DNA from: Sulfurimonas sp. HSL-1656
GTDB taxonomy: Bacteria > Campylobacterota > Campylobacteria > Campylobacterales > Sulfurimonadaceae
Assembly: GCF_039645585.1 (NCBI RefSeq)
Contig: NZ_CP147915.1
Coordinates: 558,001-622,000 of the forward strand
Reading direction: 5' to 3'
DNA: 64,000 nt
Shown: positions 14,538 through 41,182 of the stretch, piece after piece
How the letters are laid out: each line of letters begins with the position of its first letter
Numbering within the stretch: position 1 is the stretch's first letter
The notes under the pieces: model-generated
What the model was told of the DNA's origin: nothing
Databases searched by the model: none
Seen by the model: the letters and a program-made list of their open reading frames with translations, nothing else
Position numbers and translations under genes: made by a program

Positions 14538-15500
14538 TTGAACCTACTCTTGCGCAAGGCAGGTTACCTGCTGCTGATGCTGATGCTTATTACGATTATC
14601 TCTTTTATGGCCATCCACGCGGCTCCCAACAGTTTCCTCAGCGGGGGGGAACTCAACCCCAATATGTCCGCCGAAGCAATCGAACGTCTCAAAGCCGTTT
14701 ACGGGCTGGACAAACCGCTCTGGCAGCAGTACACGGATTGGATCGCCAACATGACGCAGCTCGATTTCGGCATCTCCTTCGTCAGCGGGCAGGATGTGAC
14801 TGCCGAGATCATGAAGCGCCTCCCGATCACCCTGGGGATCAATATTGTCTCTTTACTTTTTGTATTTGCCCTCTCGCTCTGGCTTGGCATCAAAGCGGCG
14901 ATGCGTTTTGAACAGAAGGCTGACCACGCGATCCGGCAGCTCTCCCTGGTCTCTTTTGCAATGCCCTCGTTCTACCTTGCGCTGTTGATGATCCTGCTCT
15001 TCAGTGTCGAACTGCAGTGGCTCCCGATCACGGGCCTGCACAGTATCGGCGGGCCGGAGGAGGGCTTTCCCTACTGGCTTGATATGGCATGGCACCTGAT
15101 CCTCCCCGTCTTTGTCATGGTCTTCCTGGCCCTGGGATCAATGACGGTATATGTGCGTTCCCTTACGCTGGAGATCCTCAAAAGCGACTACTACTTCTTT
15201 GCAAAGGCAAGGAATTTGCCGGAACGGACACTTTTCCGCCGTTACATCCTCCCCAATCTGATGCCCCCCGTCATTACGCTGCTGGGACTATCGCTGCCGG
15301 GGCTTATCGGGGGGAGCGTCATCCTGGAACAGATCTTCGGGATCGAGGGGATGGGACAGCTCTTTTACCTGAGTGCGCTAAGCAGGGATTATCCCGTCAT
15401 TATGGGCATTCTGATGATTACGGCATTCCTGACGCTGCTGGGGAATATGCTGGCGGATATGCTCCTGCTGAAACTGAACCCCTACGCGAAGCGGGGATGA
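14538..15500 (+). CDS. ABC transporter permease, OppB/DppB type
   Basis: 320 residues from a TTG start; no ATG is available near the N-terminus. An N-terminal helix is followed by an extracytoplasmic segment with the OppB-type LKAVYGLDKPLWQQYTDWIAN and LDFGISF, then five more membrane helices. The EAA loop that contacts the ATPase reads SDYYFFAKARNLPERTLFRRYILPN and the family end GIEGMGQLFYLSALSRDYPVIMG is present. It would be one of two permease subunits of a peptide/nickel-type importer, yet no OppC, ATPase or binding protein gene lies nearby, so its partners must be encoded elsewhere. It converges on nusA. Confidence 0.88.
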   Translation: MNLLLRKAGYLLLMLMLITIISFMAIHAAPNSFLSGGELNPNMSAEAIERLKAVYGLDKPLWQQYTDWIANMTQLDFGISFVSGQDVTAEIMKRLPITLGINIVSLLFVFALSLWLGIKAAMRFEQKADHAIRQLSLVSFAMPSFYLALLMILLFSVELQWLPITGLHSIGGPEEGFPYWLDMAWHLILPVFVMVFLALGSMTVYVRSLTLEILKSDYYFFAKARNLPERTLFRRYILPNLMPPVITLLGLSLPGLIGGSVILEQIFGIEGMGQLFYLSALSRDYPVIMGILMITAFLTLLGNMLADMLLLKLNPYAKRG

Positions 15501-15505
15501 GCGTA

Positions 15506-15657
15506 TTACGTGTTAAGTGTTACGTGCTACGAAATGGGAGTGGTAGTCAAATACAATATTAAGAGGGAAAAAAGGGTGCTCTGTCACCCTTCACTTAGCA
15601 CTTAGCACTTAGCACTTAGCACTTAGCACTTAGCACTTAGCACTTAGCACTTAGCAC
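15506..15657. repeat. CACTTAG heptamer array with inverted degenerate copies (bidirectional terminator candidate)
   Basis: Nine perfect tandem copies of CACTTAG occupy 15592-15654 plus a partial CAC. Upstream, 15506-15531 holds inverted, imperfect copies on the other arm (TTACGTG, TTAAGTG, TTACGTG, CTACG), so the transcript of either strand can fold into a long stem. It lies exactly between the convergent oppB-like and nusA genes. A similar design with another heptamer is at 41112-41182. Confidence 0.75.
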
Positions 15658-15672
15658 GGCGCGAAAACGCGC

Positions 15673-16824
15673 CTATTCGCCGAACAGCGCTTCGAGGGAG
15701 GAGAGGTCCTCTTTTTTCTCTTCGGCCGGCATGCCTTCTTCGGCATTGGCTGAACTTCCGCCCTGTTCGACAAGCTCAATGGCGTAGCCGGTGAGCATGG
15801 AGGCGAGACGGATATTGATACCGCTTTTGCCGATCGCTTTTGATTTCTGGTCGCTCGGCAGGGTGACGATCGCTTTTGCTTCGCTCTCTTCATCTTCCGG
15901 GTCGCCTTCGATCGTGACGGAGCTGATGATCGCCGGGCTCATGGCGCGGGCGATGAAGAGTTCCGGAACGGAGGTGTACTCGACACAGTCGATGTTCTCG
16001 CCCAGCAGTTCGTCGCTGACGGCGTTGATACGGACCCCTTTGACCCCGACGGTCGCACCGACAGGGTCGACCTGCGGGTGGGTCGAGAGCAGGGCGATCT
16101 TGGCGCGTTCGCCCGGGATACGCGCACACTTCTCGACGATGACGAGTTTGTCGTTGATCTCGGGAACCTCGAGGCGCAGCAGCTCTTCGAGGAATTTCGG
16201 AGAGGTGCGCGAGAGTTCGATGGAGATGCCGTTGATCTTGTCGATGTTGACGCGGCGGACGACGGCGTTGACGACGTCGCCGACCTTGAAGTGCTCACCC
16301 TTGATACGGCTTTTCATCGGGAGGACGGCTTTGACCTCTTCCATATCGATATAGGTATTCTGCTTGCCGTCGACGCGGGTAACGCGTCCGGAGACGATGG
16401 TACCGATCTTCTCTTTGTACTTGTTGTACAGTTCGTTCTCGACCATGCGCTGGATATGGAACTCGATTTCGCGGAACAGGGTCGCAGCCGCAGTACGGCC
16501 GTGGGATTCGATGTCGTGCTCGATCTGGAATTCGTCGCCGACTTCGACGTCCGGATCGACCTCGGCCTTGGCGCGTGTCAGGCCGATATAGGCCGCGGCC
16601 TCCTCGCCCTCGAGACGTTCGTCGTCATCTTCGACAACGGTGATGGTCTGGTAGACGCGGATGCTCTTCGTCTCCGGATCGATTTCCGCATCGTAGGCGA
16701 ACTCCGGGTTGACCAGGCGCTTGGCCGTCTGGATAAATGCCGCTTTGACCGCTTCTTTCACGCTGTCGGGGGAGAGCCCTTTCTCGTGTGCGATCGATTC
16801 AATAATGTCCAGAATATTTTCCAT
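15673..16824 (-). CDS. nusA: Transcription termination/antitermination protein NusA
   Basis: 383 residues. The N-terminal RNA-polymerase-binding domain (ENILDIIESIAHEKGLS) is followed by an S1 domain (KIGTIVSGRVTRVDG to VNAVVRRVN), then KH1 (LSRTSPKFLEELLRLEVPEI), and KH2 with HPQVDPVGATVGVKGVRI and SKAIGKSGINIRLASMLTG. The C-terminus is acidic and lacks the two AR repeats of enterobacterial NusA, as expected outside Gammaproteobacteria. NusA modulates pausing, termination and antitermination. It is a single-gene unit here with its own -10; the common rimP-nusA-infB cluster is not seen. Confidence 0.94.
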   Translation of the reverse strand: MENILDIIESIAHEKGLSPDSVKEAVKAAFIQTAKRLVNPEFAYDAEIDPETKSIRVYQTITVVEDDDERLEGEEAAAYIGLTRAKAEVDPDVEVGDEFQIEHDIESHGRTAAATLFREIEFHIQRMVENELYNKYKEKIGTIVSGRVTRVDGKQNTYIDMEEVKAVLPMKSRIKGEHFKVGDVVNAVVRRVNIDKINGISIELSRTSPKFLEELLRLEVPEINDKLVIVEKCARIPGERAKIALLSTHPQVDPVGATVGVKGVRINAVSDELLGENIDCVEYTSVPELFIARAMSPAIISSVTIEGDPEDEESEAKAIVTLPSDQKSKAIGKSGINIRLASMLTGYAIELVEQGGSSANAEEGMPAEEKKEDLSSLEALFGE

Positions 16825-41112: not shown

Positions 41113-41182
41113 CTTTTTGAGCGTTGAGCGTTAAGAACAGAACCAGGATGACTTCTCATCCTACGCTTAACGCTTAACGCTA
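41112..41182. terminator. Heptamer-repeat hairpin between convergent dedA-family and uvrB genes
   Basis: GAGCGTTGAGCGTTAAG (41119-41135) pairs with CTTAACGCTTAACGCT (41166-41181), two copies of a GCGTTAA heptamer in each arm. An inner 6-bp hairpin AGGATG/CATCCT sits at 41145-41162. The arms extend with GCTTT/AAAGC at the ends. A U-rich flank on the plus side (GCTTTTT) makes the hairpin a plausible bidirectional terminator. See 15506-15657 for the same plan with another heptamer. Confidence 0.65.

Follow-up and report, generated by a model that had tools for sequence, protein, structure and literature searches.

Direct repeats of the heptamer TAACTGA were described in Beggiatoaceae, Cyanobacteria and Bacteroidetes (MacGregor 2015, PMC4679880); in the available text of that work, eight TAACTGA sets of a Microcystis sample lie between stop codons, all in one chromosomal orientation, and slippage is cited as the proposed reason for the abundance of heptamers. 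The GGGNATC heptamers of Xanthomonas and Nostoc, which are of the G-quadruplex type, are mostly non-coding and variable in copy number, as presented in the accessible part of their description (Rehm 2015, PMC4692102). Intrastrand triplex motifs are represented in bacteria by the PIT elements, BoxC and TM_ECO, and the portion of the source at hand reports that these triplex elements block polymerase in vitro and discusses slippage (Holder 2015, PMC4666352). The arrays considered here resemble the TAACTGA repeats in being intergenic, in containing stop codons, in a unit number that varies between strains and in their patchy distribution, as far as the available text of PMC4679880 describes these features. 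According to the same text, TAACTGA mostly occurs just upstream of start codons, whereas the present arrays consist of GNGNTAA units, lie at gene 3' ends and are attached to a structured element with replication polarity. With such units and, by reading, 17 of 19 sites at gene 3' ends, they do not belong to the TAACTGA type. The heptameric unit, the mostly non-coding location and the variable copy number are shared with GGGNATC as well, but CACTTAG, the unit met at the locus under study, has no G-run, in contrast to the repeats described in the accessible part of PMC4692102.

The analysed DNA (the window, 64,000 nt) is G000:C1:558001-622000, a part of a single-contig genome of 2,556,179 bp, and window coordinates are used in the table below. 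As was determined in sampled stretches, GC skew is positive on the left up to 950 kb and negative from 1.45 Mb. Being located on the - strand of the left replichore, nusA is transcribed head-on to replication.

Table. Features of the nusA junction and of the related structure at 41.1 kb (window coordinates)
Feature	Coordinates	Strand	Remarks
OppB/NikB-like ABC transporter permease gene	14550..15500	+	Co-directional with replication; first start in the ORF list at 14538; best NCBIfam matches (OppB/NikB-like) under those families' cut-offs
Left arm, three imperfect units inverted relative to the array	15510..15530	+	GTGTTAA 15510-15516, GTGTTAC 15517-15523, GTGCTAC 15524-15530; sequence reading, repeat finder, partner test
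Small hairpin AAGGGTG-ACAGAG-CACCCTT followed by T-run	15568..15591	-	Likely nusA intrinsic terminator (predicted)
Heptamer array, 9.4 perfect units	15592..15657	-	CACTTAG, GTGCTAA on the nusA sense strand; Tandem Repeats Finder: 9.4 copies, 100% matches, 15592-15657
Hairpin GGCGCG-AAAA-CGCGCC between array and nusA stop codon	15658..15673	-	Sequence and fold
nusA	15673..16824	-	Left replichore, head-on to replication; TIGR01953 match above cut-off
Second inverted-heptamer structure	41117..41181	.	Between DedA-like gene (+) and uvrB (-); arms 41117-41132 and 41163-41181, hairpin AGGATGACTTCTCATCCT at 41145-41162

The repeat on which the original prediction was based is real, with 9.4 perfect CACTTAG units facing three imperfect inverted ones, and such repeats exceed chance, as three tandem GNGNTAA units (at most one mismatch) gave 41+55 matches in the genome versus 0+0 for the reversed pattern. 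Tandem Repeats Finder also reported a weaker heptamer array at 15502-15531 (4.3 copies, 82%), and of 200 random stretches from this locus, 3 contained an opposite-strand heptamer pair of the left arm's quality. The AAGGGTG/CACCCTT hairpin sits between the unequal arms (9 vs 3 units) and is present in the - strand fold. Ordinary intrinsic terminators consist of a G+C-rich stem with a T-run right behind it; the central hairpin, as read on the nusA strand, would be of this kind, except that heptamer arms flank it. The consensus terminator scan did not flag the hairpin, perhaps, we think, due to the stem swallowing part of the T-run. RNA folding of the junction gave z values of -2.5 (+ strand) and -3.1 (- strand). 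The ‘long ladder-like stem’ expected of either transcript was an overstatement: on the - strand, the fold shows the array in part self-paired, with no more than a few short stretches paired to the left arm. Moreover, the terminator had been called bidirectional, which is unproven because the T-run, by reading, follows the hairpin on the - strand only, the + strand having none. The terminator reading of the array at this junction is only partly supported. Elsewhere in the window, an Opr-family porin profile gave a match below its cut-off, which agrees, as do close relatives labelled Sulfuricurvum, with an origin in Campylobacterota.

A search of ten relatives revealed NusA in all of them, nine with readable sequence past the gene (the G003 contig stops 13 nt beyond nusA). 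An array of the nusA-junction kind was absent from the nusA 3' side in 9/9 readable relatives; the only heptamers recorded there were a single degenerate two-unit pair with one mismatch in G014, and G004, G006 and G001 carry, by eye, a similar small hairpin alone. These junctions argue against a terminator made by repeat expansion, as had been proposed. The array at the nusA junction would be a lineage-specific addition or else was lost in the relatives, loss being possible; heptamers added here, or lost elsewhere, are therefore not what terminates these genes in general.

The analogous structure at 41.1 kb, with its short heptamer arms around a hairpin, withstood inspection as well. Neither G004 nor G007 has it, their junction being only ~10 nt long; the DedA/uvrB junction of G005 (L191) holds an unrelated insert of roughly 2 kb of coding-like sequence. 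Including this one, four inverted structures of ~60-100 bp each lie in the genome, apart from the nusA junction, at 381.5 kb, 599.1 kb (that is, 41.1 kb of the window), 1457.65 kb and 2247.9 kb, and at all four sites the whole structure is missing in every alignable congener (G004, G005 and G007 at 381.5 and 2247.9 kb; G004 and G007 at 599.1 and 1457.65 kb). An AGGATGA..TCATCCT hairpin is common to three of the inverted structures and has no counterpart there in three congeners. Of its five places in the genome, three belong to heptamer structures, another falls within a called gene and the last is at 1,668,223, where the three congeners have similar hairpins. No target-site duplications were seen by eye at the inverted-cassette insertions (no statistic was applied). 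As had been anticipated, repeat number differs between species: one orthologous array site holds 7 (G000), 12 (G005), 9 (G003), 4 (G007) and 0 (G004) CACTTAG units. At another gene end, G004 possesses a single GCGTTAA that includes the stop codon, and the orthologous end in G000 reads (GCGTTAA)2(GGGTTAA)9.

Matches of the whole-genome scan (GNGNTAA x3, up to one mismatch) were grouped, together with the 41.1-kb structure, into 19 sites, which bears out the suggested recurrence of heptamer arrays. Units are near-identical within a site, and the sites use GTGCTAA, GAGTTAA, GCGTTAA or GGGTTAA; being perfect tandem 7-mers, non-coding and variable in copy number between relatives, they represent heptameric simple sequence repeats. 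The background was estimated on 19 systematic 20-kb samples with a gene caller trained on sampled DNA, and convergent gaps accounted for 42 of the 351 junctions and for 6,910 of the 33,563 intergenic bases. Convergent junctions accommodate 10 of the 19 array sites versus a 21.1% share of intergenic bases (replichores clear of the terminus; binomial p = 0.0025), so that the enrichment foreseen in the original prediction was indeed observed. By eye, 16 of the 17 arrays at gene ends run in the sense direction of the gene. Site 696,700 is in a divergent gap. At site 2,277,237 (L054, G000:C1:2277237-2277264), four degenerate units were found within a called gene, apparently kept in frame. The inverted partner is not a general feature: it is clear at seven sites (at most 7/200 in the control) and borderline at an eighth (18/200), and an opposite arm is missing from all seven long arrays that abut the dispersed element described below. 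Twelve arrays comprise at least four units, and ten of these have the sense of the head-on gene (one-sided p = 0.019). Seven of the twelve abut the dispersed element; the other five are head-on in three cases, sites 552,029 and 640,516 breaking the rule, and a head-on bias of arrays apart from the element-attached ones is unproven.

Exact three-unit GNGNTAA matches were detected in 8 of 60 genomes and 3 of 39 genera, with two genera of the family represented besides its own. In G031, which belongs to another genus, 6/6 arrays fetched follow the head-on polarity as judged by GC skew, and five of the six have a gene end on one side and a different conserved sequence on the other. At L225-L232 (G031, G014), (GNGNTAA)n after gene stops runs into a conserved sequence starting GAAAGATGNNGCAGCNCATCTTT. 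All GNGYTAA unit types carry stop codons on both strands; as a general rule this fails for other heptamers of the bacterial family, several of which have a stop on one strand only and one of which, AATCGGG, has none. Arrays of AATCGGG are found in a distant relative (G039), those of AATAGGG are abundant in G018, and an AATGGTG array of ~67 units occupies G031:C1:2181184-2181652. Behind several arrays (L058, L065, L079, L162) stands a short hairpin of a recurring type, similar to CGGAGGAAGTCCCCTCGGGGGATAGCAC.

A 170-bp query (an example of the element is L056:1501-1670, G000:C1:481839-482008) revealed 18 copies of the dispersed ~165-bp element in the genome, 11 on the + strand, all below 0.94 Mb, and 7 on the - strand, all above 2.0 Mb; all 18 follow the direction of replication. 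The window itself contains none, the nearest copy being at genome position 622,714, ~700 bases past its end. Every full-length copy among the scored matches listed for G004, G005 and G007 (up to ~14 per congener) obeys the same polarity (a weak 40-bp G005 match inside another copy was ignored), although these genomes and G000 are not independent in this respect, because the copies are largely orthologous. Convergent junctions hold 14 of the 18 copies (p = 4.5e-7), and the array-side neighbour is transcribed toward the element, head-on, in 18/18 cases counting one tRNA-Pro, or in 17/18 by protein genes alone (p = 1.8e-6 under a 39.8% background). Nine of the 18 copies end, by eye, in at least two heptamer units, and the unit at the same place varies by copy (CACTTAG, TTAACTC, TTCACGC, CTACCTA, CTACAAC), with further units there in the congeners. 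Since the letters of the unit differ at one fixed place, the 7-nt period and not the letters is intrinsic. An alignment of module B of the element to the nusA junction scored 16 against a shuffle mean of 16.5, with 134 of 200 shuffles aligning as well, and was rejected as a remnant. The Rfam search gave no family for the element at gathering scores, the window showing only tRNAs, and two sub-threshold matches were regarded as due to chance. A scan of the genome collection with the core pattern of module A, the core of the element, yielded 17 stretches, among which module A was recognised by eye in those from Sulfuricurvum, Sulfurovum and an unclassified Campylobacterales MAG; the remaining ones resemble chance coding matches, and five viral stretches, too, seem to be due to chance. 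In several copies (L063, L157, L164, L103 and, in a Sulfuricurvum MAG, L136), module A is split at the same position by one kind of ~45-nt sequence that bears inverted repeats itself (CATTTAGTGCCTCGCATGTATTG..GCTTTAGCGCTTAT), a small element nested within the larger one.

Module A is predicted to form a ten-layer T·A-T/C·G-C triple-helix pseudoknot. The class II intrastrand triplex pattern (Y-R-R', where R' is the mirror of R) was recognised by script in 59 of 61 candidates, and the alignment was made of 41 distinct sequences over 69 model positions, selected from a 59-row set by a stricter pattern. In this alignment, pairing reaches 92.3% in the 6-bp stem and 98.3% in the 10-bp pyrimidine:purine helix, with four covarying pairs in each; it drops from 96% in register to 55-68% in slid registers. 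The third strand fits in the parallel register in 98.0% of cells versus 46-63% in shifted ones. Covariation and triad counts, both inflated by relatedness among the copies, amounted to 93 double-change cells against 31 ± 6 in shuffles (0/500) and to 398 exact T·A-T or C·G-C triads out of 410, four layers switching type in all three strands together. Single-strand RNA folding without pseudoknots gave z = -0.08, so that nearest-neighbour folding lends no support to the structure.

As described in the accessible part of Holder 2015 (PMC4666352), PIT elements, BoxC and TM_ECO share with module A the order pyrimidine - purine - mirror purine (class II) and the dispersed, intergenic location; unlike those motifs, module A is A/T-rich with loops of ~8 and 9 nt (1-6 in their search), and goes beyond them in an extra covarying 6-bp stem, which makes it a pseudoknot, and in the heptamer tail. 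Its strand bias (18/18) likewise contrasts with the distribution given there for TM_ECO, 13 plus and 10 minus, that is, none. Neither the TM_ECO consensus (CCCTCNCCC...) nor loops of at most 6 nt nor the lack of strand bias, as presented in the same source, apply to module A, which is not a TM_ECO copy. As RNA of the head-on gene, module A would also resemble the ENE, having a U-rich internal loop and a downstream A-rich tract that fit a parallel U·A-U helix. In ENE such a loop and tract form a parallel U·A-U triple helix. The available parts of the sources describe these triple helices in MALAT1, PAN and plant retrotransposons (PMC11411715, PMC12501189). The predicted loop, A-tract and covarying parallel third strand agree with an ENE-type sequence; unlike ENE, module A is bacterial, is a tight tethered pseudoknot with C·G-C layers and is known here from sequence alone.

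These data can be explained in several ways. If the heptamer arms, produced by repeat expansion, formed a long stem ending either transcript, one would expect inverted arms, which are indeed clear at the nusA junction and six other sites, as well as the folding scores of this junction and the convergent placement of arrays; the AGGATGA..TCATCCT core, missing at its places in three congeners, looks like a spread terminator cassette too. We nevertheless find this explanation unlikely, as the relatives do without arms, most long arrays have no opposite arm, and the arms at nusA are unequal, with no T-run on the + strand. Possible, albeit doubtful, is that the arrays are plain neutral microsatellites that lengthen by slippage in 7-nt steps at any place where selection tolerates it, meaning intergenic DNA, irrespective of replication direction. 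Among bacterial repeats, heptamers are a common class, according to the accessible parts of PMC4679880 and PMC4692102, the arrays occupy non-coding gaps, heptamers of unrelated sequence are also present in the family, and outside the element two of five arrays disregard the head-on rule; a GNGNTAA rule shared in at least three genera, the convergent enrichment and the fact that arrays arose repeatedly at a single position within the element are nevertheless difficult to reconcile with neutrality.

The replication orientation of 18/18 element copies, their palindromic structure and their clustering near the origin, with no copies between 0.94 and 2.0 Mb, could also be produced by a non-autonomous IS200/IS605-like element that transposes in single-stranded form via the lagging-strand template and leaves arrays as its tail. 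IS608 and ISDra2 are known to target this template, as stated in the available part of PMC6006769. Still, Y1 transposase (PF01797) had no match in the genome as compared with matches in 5 of the 14 control genomes, the congeners have the element at most of the same sites and no element remnant was found at the nusA junction, which makes such movement quite improbable. Neither a RAYT/Y1 transposase as the mover nor an IS200/IS605-derived MITE finds a Y1 transposase in this genome. The least credible reading, to which we give hardly any weight, is a translation safeguard: as 7 is not a multiple of 3, three copies of a YTAA unit put stops in all six frames at gene ends, in line with the stops of GNGYTAA units on both strands and with the gene-sense orientation of 16/17 gene-end arrays (by eye). 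The arrays are, however, far longer than needed for that, and in several units of the family only one of the strands carries a stop, or, in the case of AATCGGG, neither does.

We consider it about an even bet that the nusA locus is an ordinary small hairpin terminator, mainly of nusA, beside a heptamer microsatellite expanded in this species, the arrays arising by 7-nt slippage at the 3' ends of head-on genes. Slippage during replication would lengthen the arrays at places where the fork runs into the 3' end of a gene transcribed head-on, nusA in this case, and at other sites a triple helix or hairpin in DNA may promote it. Inverted arms could appear as each converging gene end can carry units in its own sense direction, and also via gain or loss of whole short inverted cassettes; arm-arm pairing would then be a by-product, and the terminator function would stay with the small central hairpin. 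Head-on slippage is inferred here from the position of the arrays only. Given that the nusA junction shows no detectable trace of the element, what is claimed for it is confined to a terminator hairpin and a heptamer expansion, specific to the species, at the end of a head-on gene, and the nusA-junction finding is mostly explained by a heptamer microsatellite beside a normal terminator.

More tentatively, module A may be a replication-polar triple-helix pseudoknot at the 3' side of head-on units, acting either as an RNA clamp that both ends and protects the head-on transcript, or as a polar structure in the DNA that the fork would encounter immediately ahead of its collision with head-on RNA polymerase, in which case the arrays, including that at nusA, could be slippage footprints marking conflict sites. 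Were the arrays such footprints of fork-transcription encounters, replication conflict would be readable from sequence and testable by repeat counts. What sets the element apart from bacterial triplex repeats described so far is a strongly covarying predicted triple-helix pseudoknot whose replication polarity has no exception in four complete genomes. In the open-access literature that we searched, we found no report of replication-oriented triplex elements or of GNGNTAA heptamers in Campylobacterota; heptamer repeats and bacterial intrastrand triplexes are known, but the fixed replication polarity and the pseudoknot clamp appear new within this scope.

A covariance model restricted to the 6-bp stem had matches in 16 of 398 genomes and 4 of 87 genera, 12 of these genomes being additional ones from a second bacterial family. 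The matches from this family show parallel third-strand runs of 6-14, although the third strand was not part of the model; compared with the run in the reversed tract, the parallel run was longer in 11 of 19 matches, of the same length in 8 and never shorter, one of the 20 having been left out as it had no recognisable core. At L240, a G stands opposite a T-A inversion of the helix, as is usual in triplets for an inversion of this kind. Convergent placement is weaker in the second family (7 of the 16 matches for which genes were called on both sides). G060, a complete genome, has four matches of the same polarity if its origin lies near coordinate 1, and the skew at two of the four loci fits this polarity.
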